Shown one piece after another: positions 34,650 to 41,413 of a stretch of DNA of 64,000 bases. The notes beneath the pieces were generated by a model. The model was not told where the DNA came from and did not search any database. It saw only the letters and a list, made by a program, of their open reading frames with translations. Position 1 is the stretch's first letter. Every line of letters starts with the position of its first letter. Made by a program: the position numbers and the translations under genes. Origin of the DNA: Aurantimicrobium minutum (GTDB lineage: Bacteria; Actinomycetota; Actinomycetes; Actinomycetales; Microbacteriaceae); assembly GCF_029893825.1 (NCBI RefSeq), contig NZ_JARXXV010000001.1, positions 1,240,001-1,304,000 on the forward strand. The letters are read 5' to 3'.

Positions 34650-36041
34650 TCAGTTCCGAGCTAAGTCGAAACTGACGCTGGCATCGAGACCGCCTTCGGG
34701 TCGTGGCGCCAGCTGCGCTTTGCCGCCTGAAGCCCTGGCAAGTTGAGCAACAATTGCCAGCCCTAAACCACTGCCATGTCGATCAGAGTTTGCTCGCCAG
34801 AATCTGTCGAAGGCTCTGGTGCATTCTTCTGGGGTCAAACCTGGACCTTGATCGAGAACATGCAAGCTGGCAAGAGTTCCAGCAGTGATTACACGGACAG
34901 TAATTTTGCTCTTGAGCGGGCTGACCGACAAGGCGTTATCGATGTAGTTGTCCACGATTTGCTCAACCGCATTGGGCACGGCAATAACTTCAGCTGAGAC
35001 GGGACCCTCATAACGGAGCTTGACCCCTGATTCAGCCGCGAGTGCTTGCCACTGTTCTATACGGTCTCGAGTCAACACTGCAAGGTCGACAGTCACACGC
35101 TGGACATTTGCTGCTTCGGTTCGGCTGAGCAAGAGCAGACCCTCGATGAGGTTACTTAATCGGTCTGCCTCAGCTTCGGCTGCGGCAAGGCGTTCAGCGG
35201 CACCGGCAGGATCGCTCTCGAGAAGTTCGTGTGCTCTCTCAAGTCGCAGTCGCAGTGCGGTTAGTGGTGTGCGCAATTGATGAGAGGCATCTGCCGCGAA
35301 GGTGCGCTGCTGGTTAATGAGCAGTTCTAGGCGCTCTGCCATGTCATTGAAAGATTCAGCTAGAGAAGTGATTTCTCTGGTGCCCTTGTCTTCATCCGCT
35401 CGAGTGCGCAGGTTCCCGGCAGCCAACTCTTCGGTTGCTTCCTGGAGAGCACGAATTCTCTTGGCAATGGAACCGGCGACAATGTAACCCACGATGGCTG
35501 CCAGGAGGAGAGCCATGATGGCAACGATGCTGAGCAAACGGAGTTGGTCATTGACCCTGTTCGCAATGATGTAGTCGGGGTAGGTCAGTCGAACGGCACC
35601 CAAAATGTCCGAACCGCTCAAAATCGGAACGGTGACGTAGAGAAGTTCTTGATTGAGCGTCGTTGAAAAGCGATGTCCGGTGCTGATCTGCCCGTTAAGC
35701 GCCTGAGCTATTTCAGGGCGGTTCAAATAGGACGTACCCAAATCAGCTTGGTCATCATCGCTGACGACCACTGCGGTTCCCTGGTCATTAACAATCACAA
35801 CGCGAGATCCACCAGCATCTCGATATTTCTTCACTGCTGCGATGAGCTCACCATCATCACTGACGCTGTCAGTCTCAAGTGCTTGCTCGCTTCGACCAGC
35901 CAGGACGAAGGCGTCGCGTTCGAGCGAGGTGGTAATGCGTTCGTGTTCAACCTGTTGCAGATAGAAACCCAAAGGAATGTCTTGAACCAATAGAACCAGC
36001 AGGGTCACCGACATGAGTGCTGCGATAAAACGCCATTTCAT
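34650..36041 (-). CDS. Sensor histidine kinase (HAMP-HisKA-HATPase)
   Basis: 463 residues. Two membrane helices (about 8-28 and 170-192) flank an extracellular Cache-like sensor domain of about 140 residues (RVVIVNDQGTAVVVSDD, LYVTVPILSGSDILGAVRLT). Then HAMP (about 195-245), H-box DASHQLRTPLTALRLRLER, N-box QIVDNYIDNALSV, G1 DQGPGLTP, F-box FDRFWR, G2 GSGLGLAI. Signal unknown. Overlaps the response regulator by 4 bp; both are divergent from the ApbE/flavoreductase genes, so these are its likely targets (inference). Confidence 0.93.
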   Translation of the reverse strand: MKWRFIAALMSVTLLVLLVQDIPLGFYLQQVEHERITTSLERDAFVLAGRSEQALETDSVSDDGELIAAVKKYRDAGGSRVVIVNDQGTAVVVSDDDQADLGTSYLNRPEIAQALNGQISTGHRFSTTLNQELLYVTVPILSGSDILGAVRLTYPDYIIANRVNDQLRLLSIVAIMALLLAAIVGYIVAGSIAKRIRALQEATEELAAGNLRTRADEDKGTREITSLAESFNDMAERLELLINQQRTFAADASHQLRTPLTALRLRLERAHELLESDPAGAAERLAAAEAEADRLSNLIEGLLLLSRTEAANVQRVTVDLAVLTRDRIEQWQALAAESGVKLRYEGPVSAEVIAVPNAVEQIVDNYIDNALSVSPLKSKITVRVITAGTLASLHVLDQGPGLTPEECTRAFDRFWRANSDRHGSGLGLAIVAQLARASGGKAQLAPRPEGGLDASVSFDLARN

Positions 36042-36715
36042 ACCTGTTGCTCAAATCGAAATCCAACACCGCGGACAGACTCAATCCAGTGCGGATTACC
36101 GAGCTTCTTCCTGATTGCTGCAATGTGAGCATCTAGGGTCTTGCTGGTTCCATACCAATTGGTGTCCCAGACATCGTGCAAAATATCTGAACGCTTGAAG
36201 ACAGCACCCGGGTCAGTGCTGAGGTATTCGAGAAGTCCGAACTCTTTGGCGGTGAGATGAATAACCTCTCCGTCTAAGGTGATGCGTTGTGTGCGGGTAT
36301 CGATGGTGAGCGGTCCGAAGACTCGTTCAGCGGCAGGAAGAACCTCTTGTTCCGCTGAAATTGTCCTGCGCGCTACCGCACGAATGCGAGCCACAAGCTC
36401 ACGCATACCAAAAGGCTTAACGATATAGTCATCGGCACCTATTTCAAGTGCGACCACGCGATCAATCTCTTCATCGCGGGCACTGACCACGATGATAGGG
36501 ACGTTGCTCGAGAGACGAATTGTTCGGCACACGTCAGTGCCATCCATATCAGGAAGGCCAAGGTCAAGGAGCACAATTTCAGGATCGAACTCTTTCACAG
36601 CGGTCAGGGCAGCGGCACCACTAGTGGCATGGAAAGTGTCGAAGGTTGAACTGCTGAGTCCATCGAGGAGACCGTCGGCAACCGACTGGTCATCTTCAAC
36701 AAGAAGTACTCGCAT
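36038..36715 (-). CDS. OmpR/PhoB-family response regulator
   Basis: 225 residues. Receiver domain with the acidic pair in VEDDQSVADG, phospho-acceptor Asp in IVLLDLGLPDMDG, and IVKPFGMRELVARI; winged-helix DNA-binding domain (about 125-222) ending DAHIAAIRKKLGNPHWIESV. First gene of the two-component pair; the 122-bp gap to the divergent plus-strand genes should hold both promoters. Confidence 0.94.
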   Translation of the reverse strand: MRVLLVEDDQSVADGLLDGLSSSTFDTFHATSGAAALTAVKEFDPEIVLLDLGLPDMDGTDVCRTIRLSSNVPIIVVSARDEEIDRVVALEIGADDYIVKPFGMRELVARIRAVARRTISAEQEVLPAAERVFGPLTIDTRTQRITLDGEVIHLTAKEFGLLEYLSTDPGAVFKRSDILHDVWDTNWYGTSKTLDAHIAAIRKKLGNPHWIESVRGVGFRFEQQV

Positions 36716-36837
36716 AGTTCCATTCTGGCTTTATGCAGCTGAACATTCACCGCCATAAAGCAGTGCTGTGGAAAATTGGACAAATCTTGGATTTTCTCGG
36801 GGGCGGTCTTTACTCGCGGTTTCGTAACGTGAAAGGT

Positions 36838-37251
36838 ATGAAGTCTCAACTCATGACAGCCCTCTCGATTGTGGGCGTACTCGGAACCGCTACTACGGCA
36901 ATGGCCGTCAACACTGACGCGCTGTCCAACTTGGACCCTTCAGCAATTGGAAACGCGACGGACACTCTGCTTCCAGATCCACTGGCAACGACAGACCCCG
37001 CACAAGTCACCGACCCTAACGCCCCAACGGCGACACCTGCACCTGTCGACCCCAGCGCAACACCTGCTGTCCCTGCTGTTCCAGGGCAGGCACCAGCTGT
37101 TCCTGCGGTGCCTAGCGTTGAGGCTGCACAGGTGCATGGAACATCCGGCGGTTCAGGCACACGGGTCGCAACTGCTAACGGTGTCGCTCCTGCACACCAT
37201 GAAGAAGATCACGATGACGAAGGCGAACACGAGGAGGAAGATGATGACTAA
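36838..37251 (+). CDS. Small secreted Ala/Pro/Thr-rich protein with His/acidic tail
   Basis: 137 residues, no family recognised. Signal-like N-terminus (MKSQLMTALSIVGVLGTATTAMA), low-complexity Asp/Pro/Thr/Ala middle (PDPLATTDPAQVTDP...), a motif HGTSGGSGT, and a terminal metal-binding-looking tail HHEEDHDDEGEHEEEDDD. First gene of the operon with an ApbE flavin transferase and a ferric-reductase-like protein, so a metal or redox carrier role is possible but unproven. ATG 36838 is chosen because AAAGGT lies just upstream. Overlaps the next gene by 8 bp. Confidence 0.75.
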   Translation: MKSQLMTALSIVGVLGTATTAMAVNTDALSNLDPSAIGNATDTLLPDPLATTDPAQVTDPNAPTATPAPVDPSATPAVPAVPGQAPAVPAVPSVEAAQVHGTSGGSGTRVATANGVAPAHHEEDHDDEGEHEEEDDD

Positions 37252-37630
37252 GAGAATTCATCCTGCCGAATCCTCACGCAAGCTCATTGGAGTTGCCTCA
37301 GGAGTTGCCTTGGTAGGTATTGTCACGGGCTTTCAATTTTCTGCCAATGCACAAGAGGACGAACAGGCACAGCAGGTCTCGCCAACTCAGTCTGCATCTT
37401 CCTCAGCGGTAGCCAATTCCACAACACCTGTCGAGGAAGCTGTGCCAGCGGCCGTTCCTGCAGCGCCAGCCACTGAAGTTCAGCAGGCAGAAGTTGTTCA
37501 ACAGCAGGCAGCGGTTCCGGTAGAAGCTCCGGCACCAGCTGCTGTTGCCCCTGTTGCTCCAGCAGCCCCGGCGGCACCTGTGGCTCCCGCAGCCCCCGTC
37601 AATGGCACAACGGCAGGTTCTGGCGGATAG
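37244..37630 (+). CDS. Small secreted Ala/Pro/Val-rich protein of the ApbE locus
   Basis: 128 residues. Membrane/signal segment near residues 12-35 (KLIGVASGVALVGIVTGFQF), followed by a Gln/Glu/Ala/Pro/Val-rich tail with PAAPVAPAAP-type repeats, ending NGTTAGSGG. That ending resembles HGTSGGSGT in the preceding protein and, more loosely, the opening D-G-x-Y-x-G-x motif of FMN-binding domains, but no such domain follows. ATG 37244 has AGGAGG 6 bp upstream. Sits 7 bp before apbE. It may be a reduced carrier or scaffold. Confidence 0.7.
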   Translation: MTKRIHPAESSRKLIGVASGVALVGIVTGFQFSANAQEDEQAQQVSPTQSASSSAVANSTTPVEEAVPAAVPAAPATEVQQAEVVQQQAAVPVEAPAPAAVAPVAPAAPAAPVAPAAPVNGTTAGSGG

Positions 37631-37637
37631 TTATTAC

Positions 37638-38600
37638 ATGGTGGATGACATCTCTAAAGGTGCCCTGCGCGCGGTTTTCACTGAAACGAATTCCTTGCCC
37701 GGGGTACTTTCGCGTAGGCAGAAAATCATGGGTGGTCATGGCACGATCACACTGGTGGGGGGAAGTGAGAAACTCCTCGATCAGTGTTGGGCATTTGCTC
37801 ACCGGTGTGAACAGCTCTGGAGTCGATTTCTTCCAGAAAGCGATATCACTCGACTGAACTGGGCAGAAGGCAAACCTGTTGACGTAGATCCCCTGACGCG
37901 CCAACTCATTGCTGCCATGATTGCTGGGCATACTCTCTCGCAGGGAAGCTATGACCCCACCATGCTTCCACAGGTTCTAGCAGCTGGTTACTCAGCTTCC
38001 ACTGTTGACCCCACGGCAGTTACGACGCTGCCAAATACAGTGCGGGCACCCGGAAATATTGAAGGAATTCAATTCACCGATGACGCAGTGTTCATGCCTC
38101 TGGGAACAACACTGGATCCAGGAGGACTCGGTAAAGGTTTTACCGCTGACCTCGTAACTGCCTTTGGTCTAGAGCAGGGAGCGTACGGAGTGATGGCAGA
38201 GTTTGGCGGAGACATAGTTGTTCAAGGAGATGCCCCCGACGGGCAGGCATGGCGTCTTGGTGTGGAGAATCCGTATTCTCCCAACGAGCACGTCTCGATT
38301 ATTCGTTTGCAACGCGGCGCCATTGCGACCTCTAGCCAGCTCAAGCGACGTTTTGGTGAGGGAGAGGACCAGACGCATCACCTCATTAACCCCGCCACAC
38401 AGCACAGCGCTCGCTCACGTGCACAGACCGTAACGGTCATTGCCGCTTCAGGTGCTCGTGCTGAAGCGCTCACAAAAAGAGGTTTTGTGGACAAGCCCGA
38501 GGACTACCTCGCGTGGTTGCCTAAAGTAGGAGCAGCAGGACTTCTGCTGTTCGCCGATGGAACACAGCAGACCTCCACAAACTGGAGCACGTATCTATGA
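37638..38600 (+). CDS. apbE: FAD:protein FMN transferase (ApbE/flavin transferase)
   Basis: 320 residues. ApbE transfers FMN from FAD onto a Ser/Thr of a partner protein. Family features: KIMGGHGTITLVGG near the N-terminus, the cofactor/Mg-binding DPGGLGKGFTADLV, EFGGDIVVQGDAP, and HHLINPATQ. No signal peptide or lipobox is visible, so this copy appears cytoplasmic or is secreted without a classical signal; most bacterial ApbEs act outside. Overlaps the reductase gene by 4 bp, tying the two functionally. Confidence 0.92.
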   Translation: MVDDISKGALRAVFTETNSLPGVLSRRQKIMGGHGTITLVGGSEKLLDQCWAFAHRCEQLWSRFLPESDITRLNWAEGKPVDVDPLTRQLIAAMIAGHTLSQGSYDPTMLPQVLAAGYSASTVDPTAVTTLPNTVRAPGNIEGIQFTDDAVFMPLGTTLDPGGLGKGFTADLVTAFGLEQGAYGVMAEFGGDIVVQGDAPDGQAWRLGVENPYSPNEHVSIIRLQRGAIATSSQLKRRFGEGEDQTHHLINPATQHSARSRAQTVTVIAASGARAEALTKRGFVDKPEDYLAWLPKVGAAGLLLFADGTQQTSTNWSTYL

Positions 38601-40132
38601 ACGACCCACATATCTGGTGGTATCTCACCAGGGCGAGTGCACTCATTGCCTGGGTACTCATGACGATGTCTGTGCTCTGGGGAATTCTGTTGTCCACCAG
38701 AGTGATGCGCAGGATTGACAACCCCGCCTGGTTGCAAGATCTTCACCGTTATTTGGGTGGACTCACCTTGTTGATGGTCGCCCTGCATATGGTCACGCTG
38801 ATGCTGGACGGTTGGCTTCAGTTCTCGTTAGCCGAAACGCTGGTGCCGTTTGCCACAGACTTCAAACCTCTGGCTGTCTCCCTCGGCATCATTGCCTTCT
38901 ATATTCTCTTCGCCGTCCAAGCAACGTCGTTGGTGATGAATAAGCTTCCCCGGAAGTTCTGGAAAGGTCTTCACTACTCCAGTTACGTCGCACTCCTTCT
39001 CGTGGCGCTGCATGCAGGTTGGACCGGAACAGATGTGGGTGCTTGGTGGTATCGCGTACTTGCCATAGTGCTCATTGGTGTTGCAACCATTTCTGTGTCG
39101 GTCCGCATCATTACCGGCACCAAAACCGGCGGTGCATCCAAGCCTGACTCGGCGAAATCTTCCACACCCCCGGCAGAAGAGTTACGCCCAGCACCTCTTC
39201 AACGCGAGACCAGGACCATGGTTGTGGGAAGCATTTCTCCCGTCGCCGATGACGTACTTGCTATTCGGTTACTTCCCTTAGGTGGGGGCCAGCTTCCGGT
39301 CTGGCATCCTGGTGCCCACATCACACTGCACCTGCCCAACGGTCTCGAACGTCAGTATTCCCTCTGTGGTGATCCCGCAGAGCGCACCCACTTCGACATT
39401 GCCGTGCTGAAGACCGTTACTTCTGAGGGAGGAAGTGAATGGATTCACTCCAGCCTCACACCCGGCATGACTTTAGAAGTTTCGGGTCCCCACAATCACT
39501 TTGAGCTCGAACCAGCAAACGAATACCTTTTCATCGCTGGCGGCATCGGCATCACTCCCATTAAGGGAATGATCGAGTCGCTTCCTGAACGCCGCAAGTG
39601 GAAGTTGGTTTATGCCGGCCGCAGTCGAACTTCGATGGCTTTCCTTGACGAATTACTCGAGCGCTACCCGGATCGAATCGAGGTTTTTGCCTCCGACGAA
39701 AACGAAGGAACGCTTGATGTCTATGCATTGACGTCAGCGTCTAAGGCAGAGGTGTATTGCTGCGGACCTGAGTCTCTCATGAGCAGCGTGGCCAGCTTTG
39801 TTCCAGCCGAGCGCATGCACCTTGAACGTTTCATCGCGCTTTCCCGAGACAGCATTATTCCGGCAGCGCCTATCGAAGTCACCTGTAAGAAGAGCAGGAA
39901 AAGCTTCGTTGTCGATTCTGACGAGAGCATCTTGGAAGCTCTCGAAGAAAATGGCCTCCCCATCATTGGTTCATGCAAAAAAGGTGTGTGTGGAACATGC
40001 GAAGTCCGTGTGGTGGAGGGTAAACCTATCCACCTCGACTCCGTCATGGATGATGAAGAAAAGGATCGCCTCAAGGTGATGTACCCCTGCGTTTCGCGTG
40101 CTGAATCCGGAAAGCTCGTTCTCGACATCTAG
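38597..40132 (+). CDS. Membrane flavocytochrome-type reductase: ferric-reductase-like transmembrane + FAD/NAD + 2Fe-2S domains
   Basis: 511 residues. N-terminal six-helix ferric-reductase-like domain (about 1-175) with His-bearing helices (LHMVTLMLDGWL, HYSSYVALLLVALHAGW) for haem; then a ferredoxin-reductase module: FAD site ERQYSLCGDP, NAD(P) site AGGIGITPIKGMI, and C-terminal plant-type 2Fe-2S ferredoxin with GSCKKGVCGTCEV and YPCVSRAESG. It would pass electrons from cytoplasmic NAD(P)H through flavin, Fe-S and haem across the membrane. Expected partner: an ApbE-flavinylated extracytoplasmic carrier or iron. Ends 46 bp before tRNA-Leu. Confidence 0.9.
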   Translation: MNDPHIWWYLTRASALIAWVLMTMSVLWGILLSTRVMRRIDNPAWLQDLHRYLGGLTLLMVALHMVTLMLDGWLQFSLAETLVPFATDFKPLAVSLGIIAFYILFAVQATSLVMNKLPRKFWKGLHYSSYVALLLVALHAGWTGTDVGAWWYRVLAIVLIGVATISVSVRIITGTKTGGASKPDSAKSSTPPAEELRPAPLQRETRTMVVGSISPVADDVLAIRLLPLGGGQLPVWHPGAHITLHLPNGLERQYSLCGDPAERTHFDIAVLKTVTSEGGSEWIHSSLTPGMTLEVSGPHNHFELEPANEYLFIAGGIGITPIKGMIESLPERRKWKLVYAGRSRTSMAFLDELLERYPDRIEVFASDENEGTLDVYALTSASKAEVYCCGPESLMSSVASFVPAERMHLERFIALSRDSIIPAAPIEVTCKKSRKSFVVDSDESILEALEENGLPIIGSCKKGVCGTCEVRVVEGKPIHLDSVMDDEEKDRLKVMYPCVSRAESGKLVLDI

Positions 40133-40178: not shown

Positions 40179-40261
40179 GCGCGAGTGGCGAAATGGCAGA
40201 CGCGCTGGCTTCAGGTGCCAGTGCCCGCAAGGGCGTGGGGGTTCAAGTCCCCCCTCGCGCA
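40179..40261 (+). tRNA. tRNA-Leu (CAG)
   Basis: 83 nt class II tRNA. Acceptor GCGCGAG/CTCGCGC, anticodon loop TTCAGGT with CAG at 40212-40214, long variable arm TGCCCGCAAGGGCG, and T-arm GGGGGTTCAAGTCCCCC. CCA not encoded. Immediately followed by a terminator. Confidence 0.97.
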
Positions 40262-40266
40262 CGAAC

Positions 40267-40400: not shown

Positions 40401-40805
40401 ATGGCTAAGTACACCCTGCGCAAGGTAGCTGCTGTTGCTGCTATCGCCACTGTCGCAACCTTCGGTCTTTCTGCATGTTCAGCCCCAGCACCCGAACCCA
40501 CGCAGTCGGCAATCGGCGGAGACATCGTTGCTCCCATCGAGCTGAACTACCAGGACATCGACGGCCAGACCCTCGAGCTTGTTGTGGGCCAAGTTGTCAA
40601 CATCAACTACGGCGGAATCAACGACGGTGAGATCACCGTGTCGATCTCTGACCCCAAGGTTGTTGAGTACTCGGCTGCTGCTTACGAGAACGACACTCAG
40701 TTCTCGGCTGGCCTCAAGGCTCTCTCTGCTGGTGAGTCCACCGTGACCTTCACCTTCGCAGGCGAAGACCCCAAGGAGCTCAACATTCAGGTTCTTCTGA
40801 AGTAG
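40401..40805 (+). CDS. Small secreted lipoprotein of unknown function (copy 1)
   Basis: 134 residues. Lipoprotein signal with lipobox LSAC (cysteine about 26) after KVAAVAAIATVATFG. Mature part about 108 residues, beta-rich: DIDGQTLELVVGQVVNINYG, DGEITVSISDPKVVEYSA, and STVTFTFAGED. The pattern resembles a single Ig-like domain. Related to the next lipoprotein (LSAC, DGQT, SDP.V..., TVTF/VTFTV endings). Not matched to a family. AAGGAG ribosome site 8 bp before ATG. Confidence 0.8.
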   Translation: MAKYTLRKVAAVAAIATVATFGLSACSAPAPEPTQSAIGGDIVAPIELNYQDIDGQTLELVVGQVVNINYGGINDGEITVSISDPKVVEYSAAAYENDTQFSAGLKALSAGESTVTFTFAGEDPKELNIQVLLK

Positions 40806-40996: not shown

Positions 40997-41413
40997 ATGA
41001 TGAAGAACAAGAACATCGCAAAAGCAAGTGCATTTGTCGCTCTCGCAGCAGCAACCGCAATCAGCCTTTCAGCTTGCTCCACCGCAGCAGACGAAGACAG
41101 CTCGGCAAACGACGAGTCCAGCGAGTCCAGCCAGGTGGTAGCACCCACGATCATTGACGTCGCAACCGCTGACGGTCAGACCATTGACATCAGCAACGGT
41201 GGTTTCGTTGACATCACCACCGGTGACACCGACCCAGCTGACTGGTCAGCAGTTATCTCTGACCCTGCAGTTGCCGCTTTCACCGCTGGTGGAAAGTCTG
41301 GCGATGCAGTGATGAACCCAGGTCTGCAGGGAACTGCAGCTGGAAGCACCAAGGTTGAGCTCACTAACAAGACCACTGGTCAGGTTGTGACCTTCACCGT
41401 CAACGTCAAGTAA
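40997..41413 (+). CDS. Small secreted lipoprotein of unknown function (copy 2)
   Basis: 138 residues. Lipobox LSAC (Cys about 27) after ASAFVALAAATAIS, then a Ser/Glu/Asp linker (DEDSSANDESSESSQ) and a beta-rich domain with ADGQTIDISNGGFVDITTG, WSAVISDPAVAAFTAGG and a TVKLTN-like ending GQVVTFTVNVK. Paralogue of the preceding lipoprotein. ATG 40997 (a second ATG follows immediately); GGAG 11 bp upstream. Own transcription unit, with terminators before and after. Confidence 0.8.
   Translation: MMKNKNIAKASAFVALAAATAISLSACSTAADEDSSANDESSESSQVVAPTIIDVATADGQTIDISNGGFVDITTGDTDPADWSAVISDPAVAAFTAGGKSGDAVMNPGLQGTAAGSTKVELTNKTTGQVVTFTVNVK

Follow-up and report, generated by a model that had tools for sequence, protein, structure and literature searches.

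Substrates named for ApbE, the flavin adenine dinucleotide (FAD):protein flavin mononucleotide (FMN) transferase, are FMN-bind, NqrB/RnfD, fumarate and urocanate reductases, DUF2271, DUF3570, Flavodoxin_4 and FMN_red (PMC8238504, PMC11334425, PMC12052999). In the parts of these sources available to us all are folded or carry their site beside a flavin-binding fold, and none is a fold-free tail. In 670 genomes, 4% of the dataset of PMC8238504, the apbE gene is still an orphan. Here we describe a locus of the freshwater bacterium Aurantimicrobium minutum (Actinomycetota; Microbacteriaceae), located in a stretch of 64,000 nucleotides (contig NZ_JARXXV010000001.1 of assembly GCF_029893825.1, positions 1,240,001 to 1,304,000; hereafter the window) of a 1.67 Mb genome, in which the gene for ApbE is preceded by those for two small proteins, S1 and S2, and followed by that for a membrane reductase, RED. 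Comparison of sequences makes it probable that S2, and in this clade also S1, are substrates of the operon ApbE, and that RED would pass electrons from NAD(P)H outward to their flavin tail.

The comparison with described systems relies on those same available parts. MsrQ-like flavinylation clusters are known from Actinobacteria, some of them suggested to be iron reductases (PMC8238504). Such clusters typically include a gene for an FMN-binding domain, whereas the window operon has none: genes for two fold-free proteins take its place, and the RED of the operon terminates in a 2Fe-2S domain. The DUF2271 and DUF3570 substrates are partners of orphan apbE genes and carry an [S/T]GA[S/T] site, but these domains comprise about 135 and 420 residues (PMC8238504), whereas S1 and S2 are a single helix and a linker with the tail [S/T]-x-G-S. 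Among the FMN_red and Flavodoxin_4 substrates (PMC11334425), FMN_red has motif-like sites on an extended, unstructured C-terminal region, like S2. However, that extension adjoins a flavin-binding fold, while the S2 model predicts only a helix. In an engineered flavin-tag (Tong et al. 2021, as described in PMC12052999) a seven-residue terminal ApbE site is enough; this tag is artificial, whereas S1 and S2 would carry a natural, conserved one in which Ser is the target and x-G mostly replaces G-A. No description of S1/S2-type small proteins was found in the open literature, a coverage outside which preprints and most subscription papers fall.

Results

The operon order is S1-S2-ApbE-RED, divergent from a kinase and regulator pair (34650-40132), with overlaps of 8 bases between S1 and S2 and 4 bases between ApbE and RED, and a gap of 7 bases between S2 and ApbE. 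Pfam scans bore out the view, taken earlier in a sequence-only reading of the window, that a kinase and regulator face an operon of two tiny proteins, ApbE and a reductase without an FMN-binding domain. Neither S1 nor S2 matched a Pfam or NCBIfam family above cut-off, and no PF04205 match was obtained for either in the protein scan. In an alignment of 24 S2 proteins only H6, P7, A8, R12, P96 and Ser126 are invariant, Ser126 being part of NGTTAGS in the end stretch NGTTAGSGG (37601-37627). The predicted structure of S2 is a helix (residues 7-44) with the remainder as coil (mean predicted local distance difference test score, pLDDT, 65.5); the model has no flavin-binding fold. Within the genus the tail codons vary at wobble positions and the residues are mostly constant. 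Across the family the linkers of S1 and S2 differ greatly in length and sequence, and the ends are kept. By eye, basic residues precede the helix of S2 and A-x-A stands at its end in many relatives, suggestive of an export signal or anchor that would leave the tail outside. A direct search for relatives of S2 by its own sequence returned 418 pattern matches, of which none could be confirmed, probably because conservation is confined to helix and tail; plasmids gave no S2 match. S2 relatives were located via ApbE and RED instead.

A scan of genome contigs by ApbE alignment provided the best 80 of 342 related loci, the titles of which include Acidimicrobiia, Ilumatobacteraceae, Nanopelagicales and Thermoleophilia. 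Together with 28 family loci, nine loci of a second class and the window this amounts to 118 loci, L070 having been excluded earlier for want of an ApbE. A single-helix open reading frame (ORF) adjoins ApbE at 100 of them, leaving 85 distinct proteins once 15 duplicates are dropped. The small gene directly upstream of operon-type ApbE specifies a helix at the N terminus, followed by a linker and, close to the C terminus, [S/T]-x-[G/A]-[S/T]. This pattern lies within the last ten residues of 77 of the 85 distinct upstream proteins, compared with 8.7 expected when the part after the helix is shuffled (largest of 200,000 simulated totals, 24); as the loci share descent and most were chosen by ApbE likeness, such counts show conservation and not independent events. 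In other ORFs of at least 200 residues at the same loci the pattern occurs in 16 of 562, and among the 58 proteins with little Ser, Thr and Gly 53 have the tail, against 3.5 expected. Judged by record title, the tail is kept across three Actinomycetota classes (Actinomycetes, Acidimicrobiia and Thermoleophilia), and the linker hardly aligns.

Eight of the 85 proteins lack the pattern, namely L111 (TTKPSGG), L134 (TTTKSSG), L113, L163 and the cysteine-containing ends of L137, L139, L147 and L161. At the last four loci, one of them titled Nanopelagicales, the HPAxxxR helix of S2 is kept and the tail is swapped for a short cysteine-containing C-terminal segment, possibly representing a different cofactor or fold. 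The 18 loci without an adjacent single-helix ORF trace to contig ends, masked stretches and the hydrophobicity limit. Re-examination of eight located the tail in four (L143, L149, L159 and L066) and not in three (L142, L155 and L158), L056 being masked; two more of the 18, L052 and L170, also show a tail. A separate listing of 54 tails gave [S/T]-x-[G/A]-S in 45, with two rows (L081 and L117) in wrong frames.

The phylum was further searched with the ApbE of L131 as query, and 46 of 396 genomes matched at E <= 1e-25. The 40 matches taken from the 53 listed are mostly independent of the 80 loci above. A RED-like membrane domain lies near 27 of the 40, and in 23 of these 27 the adjacent small ORF carries the tail (e.g. 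VTRSDGS, VTKSRAS, VTASQGS, PSTGGS), although L191, one of the 23, looks accidental and the tails of L173, L190, L193 and L209 were seen only on a second look without the hydrophobicity limit. When the four loci that overlap the best-80 set (L172, L173, L175 and L177) are left out, the count is 20 of 23. The other four of the 27 miss the pattern narrowly, with similarly shaped ends: VTVTHHS, TTTAPS, VRTRTS and VTATRSS. Among the 13 phylum loci without a RED-like partner, two of which (L196 and L202) have the look of an Rnf operon, the pattern was present in L204, cut by a contig end, and in L187, in a lipoprotein-like gene. At L163, L180, L183 and L187 ApbE is encoded directly 3' of a lipoprotein-like gene with a Gly-rich region, a candidate further ApbE partner; L180, L183 and L187 gave no RED-like match (L163 was not tested).

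A second architecture was observed in some family genomes, in which a further ApbE stands beside a gene matching only the haem domain of RED. Nine of ten fetched stretches hold ApbE, and all nine have upstream small proteins with [S/T]-x-G-S at the stop codon, one or two single-helix proteins per locus that are mostly rich in Ser, Gly and Thr. The haem-domain-only protein of L080 matched Ferric_reduct (PF01794) above cut-off. Separately, at L082, L086 and L087 a further ApbE adjoins a membrane reductase whose open frames span about 490-730 residues (L082: 513). An NqrB/RnfD-like identity was suspected for this 513-residue type, but L082 matched no Pfam family above cut-off and G037 gave no PF03116 match.

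The idea that the window genome is free of canonical FMN-binding proteins had to be given up, since the whole-genome search found one FMN_bind (PF04205) at G000:C1:977167-977388, with 24 bits against a cut-off of 22; in the protein scan it reached 21.7 bits, just below that cut-off. The gene is flanked by a ferric-reductase-like gene and one for a second ApbE, and the core of the protein, SGGT, is close to the SGGS of S1. The genome thus contains a pair of flavinylation modules with separate ApbEs, of which only the one away from the operon has an FMN_bind protein. The sequence-only reading had named a canonical FMN-binding protein elsewhere in the genome as a refutation; as the one found has its own ApbE, its presence does not discriminate between the possible readings of the operon. 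In each of the 17 operon-bearing family genomes with listed FMN_bind coordinates, at least one FMN_bind gene lies within a few hundred bases of a non-operon ApbE, and 18 of 22 listed family FMN_bind genes adjoin an ApbE other than that of the operon. A model built from the family FMN_bind proteins detected none at the tail-type loci, though distant ones could escape it.

Likewise, 25 of the 46 matched phylum genomes, mostly with a RED-like partner, were tested. Four of the five above-cut-off FMN_bind genes, in four of four genomes, stand beside a further ApbE (that of G439 C17 does not). No FMN_bind match at E 0.1 was obtained in 20 of the 25, and a single ApbE gene is present in 16 (one match in 15; in G314 one gene in two pieces). 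Both conditions hold in 15 genomes, 12 of which have the tail pattern, the near misses being G556, G405 and G576. Five family drafts (G217, G234, G019, G161 and G210; 77-94% complete) also have one ApbE and no FMN_bind match, all with the tail; for G161 and G210 this absence means not among the matches listed, G019 was listed with none, and a repeated search of G037, G217 and G234 gave none. In total 20 operon-bearing genomes have a single ApbE and no FMN_bind match, with the tail pattern in 17. G037, on one contig and 99% complete, has no FMN_bind match and two ApbEs. Nine family genomes gave no PF03116 (NqrB/RnfD) match and no DUF2271 above cut-off; DUF3570, FMN_red and Flavodoxin_4 were not searched.

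The enzyme itself is, by its PF02424 match and conserved Asp, Lys and His, a member of the ApbE family. Residues D160, G162-G163, K166 and H248 are invariant in 23 sequences including that of the window, which also matches FMN transferases of the PDB by sequence; the catalytic His of ApbE is named in PMC12052999. An ApbE of the operon kind is present in six of eight genomes of the genus. No export signal was visible by eye at the start of 25 of 27 listed family ApbEs, the other two starts being truncated, nor in the FMN_bind-linked second ApbE of the window genome. In an ApbE tree of 102 rows the seven FMN_bind-type rows, all from the family of the window, form one side of a branch with support 100/99, and together with two Rnf-type rows they are split from all tail-type rows by a branch with 97/92. 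The ApbE class accompanying the 513-residue reductase falls on the tail side, joined to a long branch and with unsure placement. ApbEs of L112, L135 and L166, titled Acidobacteria or Bifidobacterium breve metagenome-assembled genome (MAG), group among Microbacteriaceae or beside Ilumatobacteraceae rows, and these labels look doubtful.

The published ApbE motif is D-x-x-[S/T]-G-A-[S/T], of which seven residues suffice; tags work best at the N or C terminus, cytosolic ApbEs exist, replacement of the motif Asp is reported to matter little, and known ApbEs favour Thr as target (PMC12052999, in the part available). The tails share with this motif the first [S/T] and the target, while G-A is mostly x-G and the Asp is not conserved. 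A set of 99 distinct proteins with the tail was selected by the pattern, so its information lies solely in which of the allowed residues fills each position. Ser is the target in 98 of them; the residue before the target is Gly in 87 and Ala in 12, and in 92 no more than two residues follow it. The target Ser is encoded by TCN in 64 cases and AGY in 34, and the use of both codon families implies that conservation acts on the amino acid rather than on the DNA. The core that is conserved reads [S/T]-x-G-S. The two stretches first taken for protein ends, HGTSGGSGT and NGTTAGSGG, are both present. NGTTAGSGG does end S2; HGTSGGSGT (37135-37161) lies inside S1, whose own end is an Asp/Glu/His tail. 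Of the T/S-x-GSG pattern said to be common to them, the [S/T]-x-G-S part is conserved and the trailing Gly is not; the tail pattern exceeds chance (77 of 85 against 8.7 expected).

In S1 the Asp/Glu/His tail suggests metal binding. Acidic-tailed single-helix proteins precede ApbE at 95 of 158 loci, 80 of them distinct, and 32 of these 80 contain an HGTSGGS-like motif. At L113 an S1-like protein has the motifs TTGGS and VTTGS, and a separate S2 was not seen.

The assignment of RED as a haem/FAD/2Fe-2S reductase was upheld in part by Pfam, with NAD_binding_1 and Fer2 above cut-off and FAD_binding_6 just below it. RED gave no Ferric_reduct (PF01794) match, and its E value of 2e-4 with the MsrQ model is far under cut-off, so that the predicted binding of haem draws on conserved His and structure and not on Pfam. 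Across 31 sequences H50, H64, H126 and H139 (two pairs on two helices) and C460, C465, C468 and C498 are invariant. The model has five long N-terminal helices and an FAD/NAD/2Fe-2S part (mean pLDDT 80, predicted template modelling score 0.49). In fold searches the soluble part aligned with phthalate dioxygenase reductase 2pia (Z 29.9), and SpNOX 8qta aligned between residues 8 and 414 (Z 23.2), where a root-mean-square deviation of 13.5 over 342 residues indicates a different placement of domains. These searches used the whole model and mostly matched residues 200-414, so the haem domain was barely probed by them. With two His pairs on two helices and an FAD/NAD part, RED is a predicted MsrQ/NOX-like transmembrane reductase, and its modelled build is that of an exporter of electrons from NAD(P)H to the outside. 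Relatives near full length occur in 26 of 249 family genomes, that of the window included, plus G072 (two pieces) and G174 (part).

The features of the locus are collected in Table 1. Among 29 fetched family loci the operon adjoins a relative of the kinase in 25 and of the regulator in 26, and ApbE is present in 27, several of the misses being contig ends; S1- or S2-like genes lie between regulator and ApbE in most. Among 39 distinct S1 upstream regions, that of the window included, the element CTTGGATTT, over the second TTGGA half-site, is exact in 8 and occurs with one mismatch in 13 more, these counts being made without a shuffle control, with a pattern taken from the window itself and the first half-site left uncounted. 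Several tandem S1-like genes lie upstream of S2 at L045/L092 (Alpinimonas psychrophila) and L046/L094 (a Microbacteriaceae MAG), and at these Alpinimonas-type loci an element like CTTGGATTT (0-2 mismatches) precedes each of the two (L092) and three (L094) S1 copies scored. Outside the operon, after tRNA-Leu (40179-40262), the window has two tandem small lipoprotein-like genes of similar build (40401-40805 and 40997-41413).

Table 1. Genes and sequence elements of the S1-S2-ApbE-RED locus, in window coordinates
Feature	Position	Strand	Evidence and remarks
Sensor histidine kinase	34650-36041	-	HAMP, HisKA, HATPase_c; extracytoplasmic part with only a Cache-like match below cut-off
OmpR-family response regulator	36038-36715	-	Response_reg E 3.5e-27, Trans_reg_C E 1.3e-21
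Direct repeat TTGGA-N6-TTGGA, candidate regulator binding site	36776-36791	+	Between the divergent genes; read from sequence
S1, small protein, 137 residues	36838-37251	+	N-terminal signal/anchor helix ending AMA, Ala/Pro linker, internal HGTSGGS, Asp/Glu/His-rich tail
HGTSGGS in S1, candidate flavinylation site	37135-37155	+	Target Ser106 codon 37153-37155; sequence
S2, small protein, 128 residues	37244-37630	+	N-terminal HPAxxxR helix, Ala/Pro linker, C-terminal tail; alternative start 37241
NGTTAGS tail of S2, predicted flavinylation site	37601-37621	+	Target Ser126 codon 37619-37621; alignment and tail statistics
ApbE, FAD:protein FMN transferase	37638-38600	+	PF02424 E 3.3e-46; export signal not visible in sequence
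RED, predicted five-helix NOX/MsrQ-like haem domain with phthalate-dioxygenase-reductase-like FAD/NAD/2Fe-2S part, 511 residues	38597-40132	+	Pfam, invariant residues, model, fold search

Discussion

Gene content, conservation, the tail statistics, the conserved cofactor ligands and a model of S2 without a flavin-binding fold are direct observations, and from them we infer the following mechanism. Cytosolic ApbE would attach FMN, taken from FAD, to the tail Ser (Ser126 of S2; Ser106 of S1). The chain, unfolded and with its site near the end, would be modified first and exported afterwards, an order proposed because ApbE shows no export signal; since the FMN_bind-linked ApbE also shows none by eye, it is only a suggestion. 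RED would draw electrons from NAD(P)H and convey them via FAD, the 2Fe-2S cluster and two haems across the membrane. Outside, the flavin tail, tethered or released, would take up these electrons and pass them to an outside acceptor. Both the direction of electron flow and the acceptor are proposed from the build of RED and from the iron-reductase suggestion for MsrQ-like clusters, as given in the available part of PMC8238504. The acidic, His-containing tail of S1 probably gathers metal ions, e.g. ferric iron, near the flavin, and these may be the acceptor. The two-component pair would switch the operon via the TTGGA repeats. In a wider form, which the evidence favours somewhat less firmly, these proteins would be a family of natural flavin tags found across the phylum: small exported proteins without a fold, to which dedicated ApbEs in the cytosol add flavin at a C-terminal [S/T]-x-G-S. 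They would act as flexible wires or shuttles for electrons, in some cases together with an acidic partner that gathers metal.

Several observations weigh against S1 and S2 as substrates. Chief among them is the loose fit to the published motif: neither HGTSGGS nor NGTTAGS of the window matches D-x-x-[S/T]-G-A-[S/T] exactly, the exact motif occurs in 2 of 192 S1/S2 candidates (L065, DASTGAS; L192, DGATGAS), the shorter [S/T]GA[S/T] giving 21 motif matches anywhere in the 192, and the target is Ser in 98 of 99 tails whereas known ApbEs prefer Thr (PMC12052999, in part). The cysteine-ended proteins of L137, L139, L147 and L161 retain ApbE yet end differently. ApbEs of this class appear to have no signal peptide while S1 and S2 look exported, which leaves the order of events unsettled. 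Lone FMN_bind genes without an adjacent ApbE are found in G072 C12, G082 C1:1987976, G195 C1 and C161, and G439 C17, and any of the cell's ApbEs, the operon's included, could act on their products. Three of the 20 single-ApbE genomes have a near-miss tail only, and borderline NqrB/RnfD matches occur in two single-ApbE genomes, G542 (28.5 bits) and G385 (28.0 bits; cut-off 27.7). Finally, the loci are kin by descent and their counts are non-independent.

Some of these points would be accommodated if the operon ApbE served FMN_bind or another known substrate elsewhere, with S1 and S2 as accessory anchors or metal binders and the tail as a docking or sorting signal. An FMN_bind protein with the core SGGT does exist in the window genome, cross-reaction of ApbEs is possible, four family and one phylum FMN_bind genes have no adjacent ApbE, and the exact canonical motif is rare in S1 and S2. 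However, the FMN_bind gene of the window genome stands beside its own ApbE, as do 18 of 22 in the family and four of five in the phylum; in 20 genomes the operon ApbE is the sole ApbE gene and no FMN_bind match exists, and the nine family genomes searched for NqrB/RnfD and DUF2271 gave no match to the former and none above cut-off to the latter. We consider this explanation unlikely. A different modification or cofactor on the tails of S1 and S2, with RED or some other membrane protein as the target of ApbE, appears very improbable. The tail is indeed looser than the known motif, and ApbE is the sole modifying enzyme considered, others not having been sought genome-wide; still, no protein-modifying enzyme apart from ApbE, next to S2, was recognised in the operon, and the conserved haem, FAD/NAD and 2Fe-2S parts of RED have no need of a tail. 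An origin of the tail as a by-product of DNA signals for ApbE, such as a ribosome-binding site, within a Gly/Ser-rich low-complexity protein is scarcely credible. While S2 ends 7 bases before ApbE, the sequence GGCGGA could act as a ribosome-binding site, and linkers of some relatives are rich in Ser and Gly, the tail is found in 53 of 58 Ser/Thr/Gly-poor proteins against 3.5 expected, the distance from the S2 stop to the start of the ApbE alignment varies (10th-90th percentile, -11 to 89 bases), and the target Ser uses both codon families. On the shuffles and the codon and spacing data, chance in low-complexity sequence and DNA-level signals were rejected as the main cause.

The choice posed by the sequence-only reading, between the tiny proteins as new ApbE substrates and an acceptor encoded elsewhere, is therefore tilted by the comparative sequence evidence toward the former, given a tail held across three classes, FMN_bind genes placed beside other ApbEs, and 20 genomes with a single ApbE and no FMN_bind match. 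S1 and S2 are directly testable by co-expression and the in-gel fluorescence assay used for DUF2271, as described in the available part of PMC8238504. If S1 and S2 are indeed flavinylated, the notion of a flavoprotein would have to change to take in a conserved carrier built from helix, linker and flavinylated tail. Such a carrier would add a class of substrates possibly hidden by the published signal-peptide filter, and would help to explain the orphan apbE genes of many Actinomycetota.

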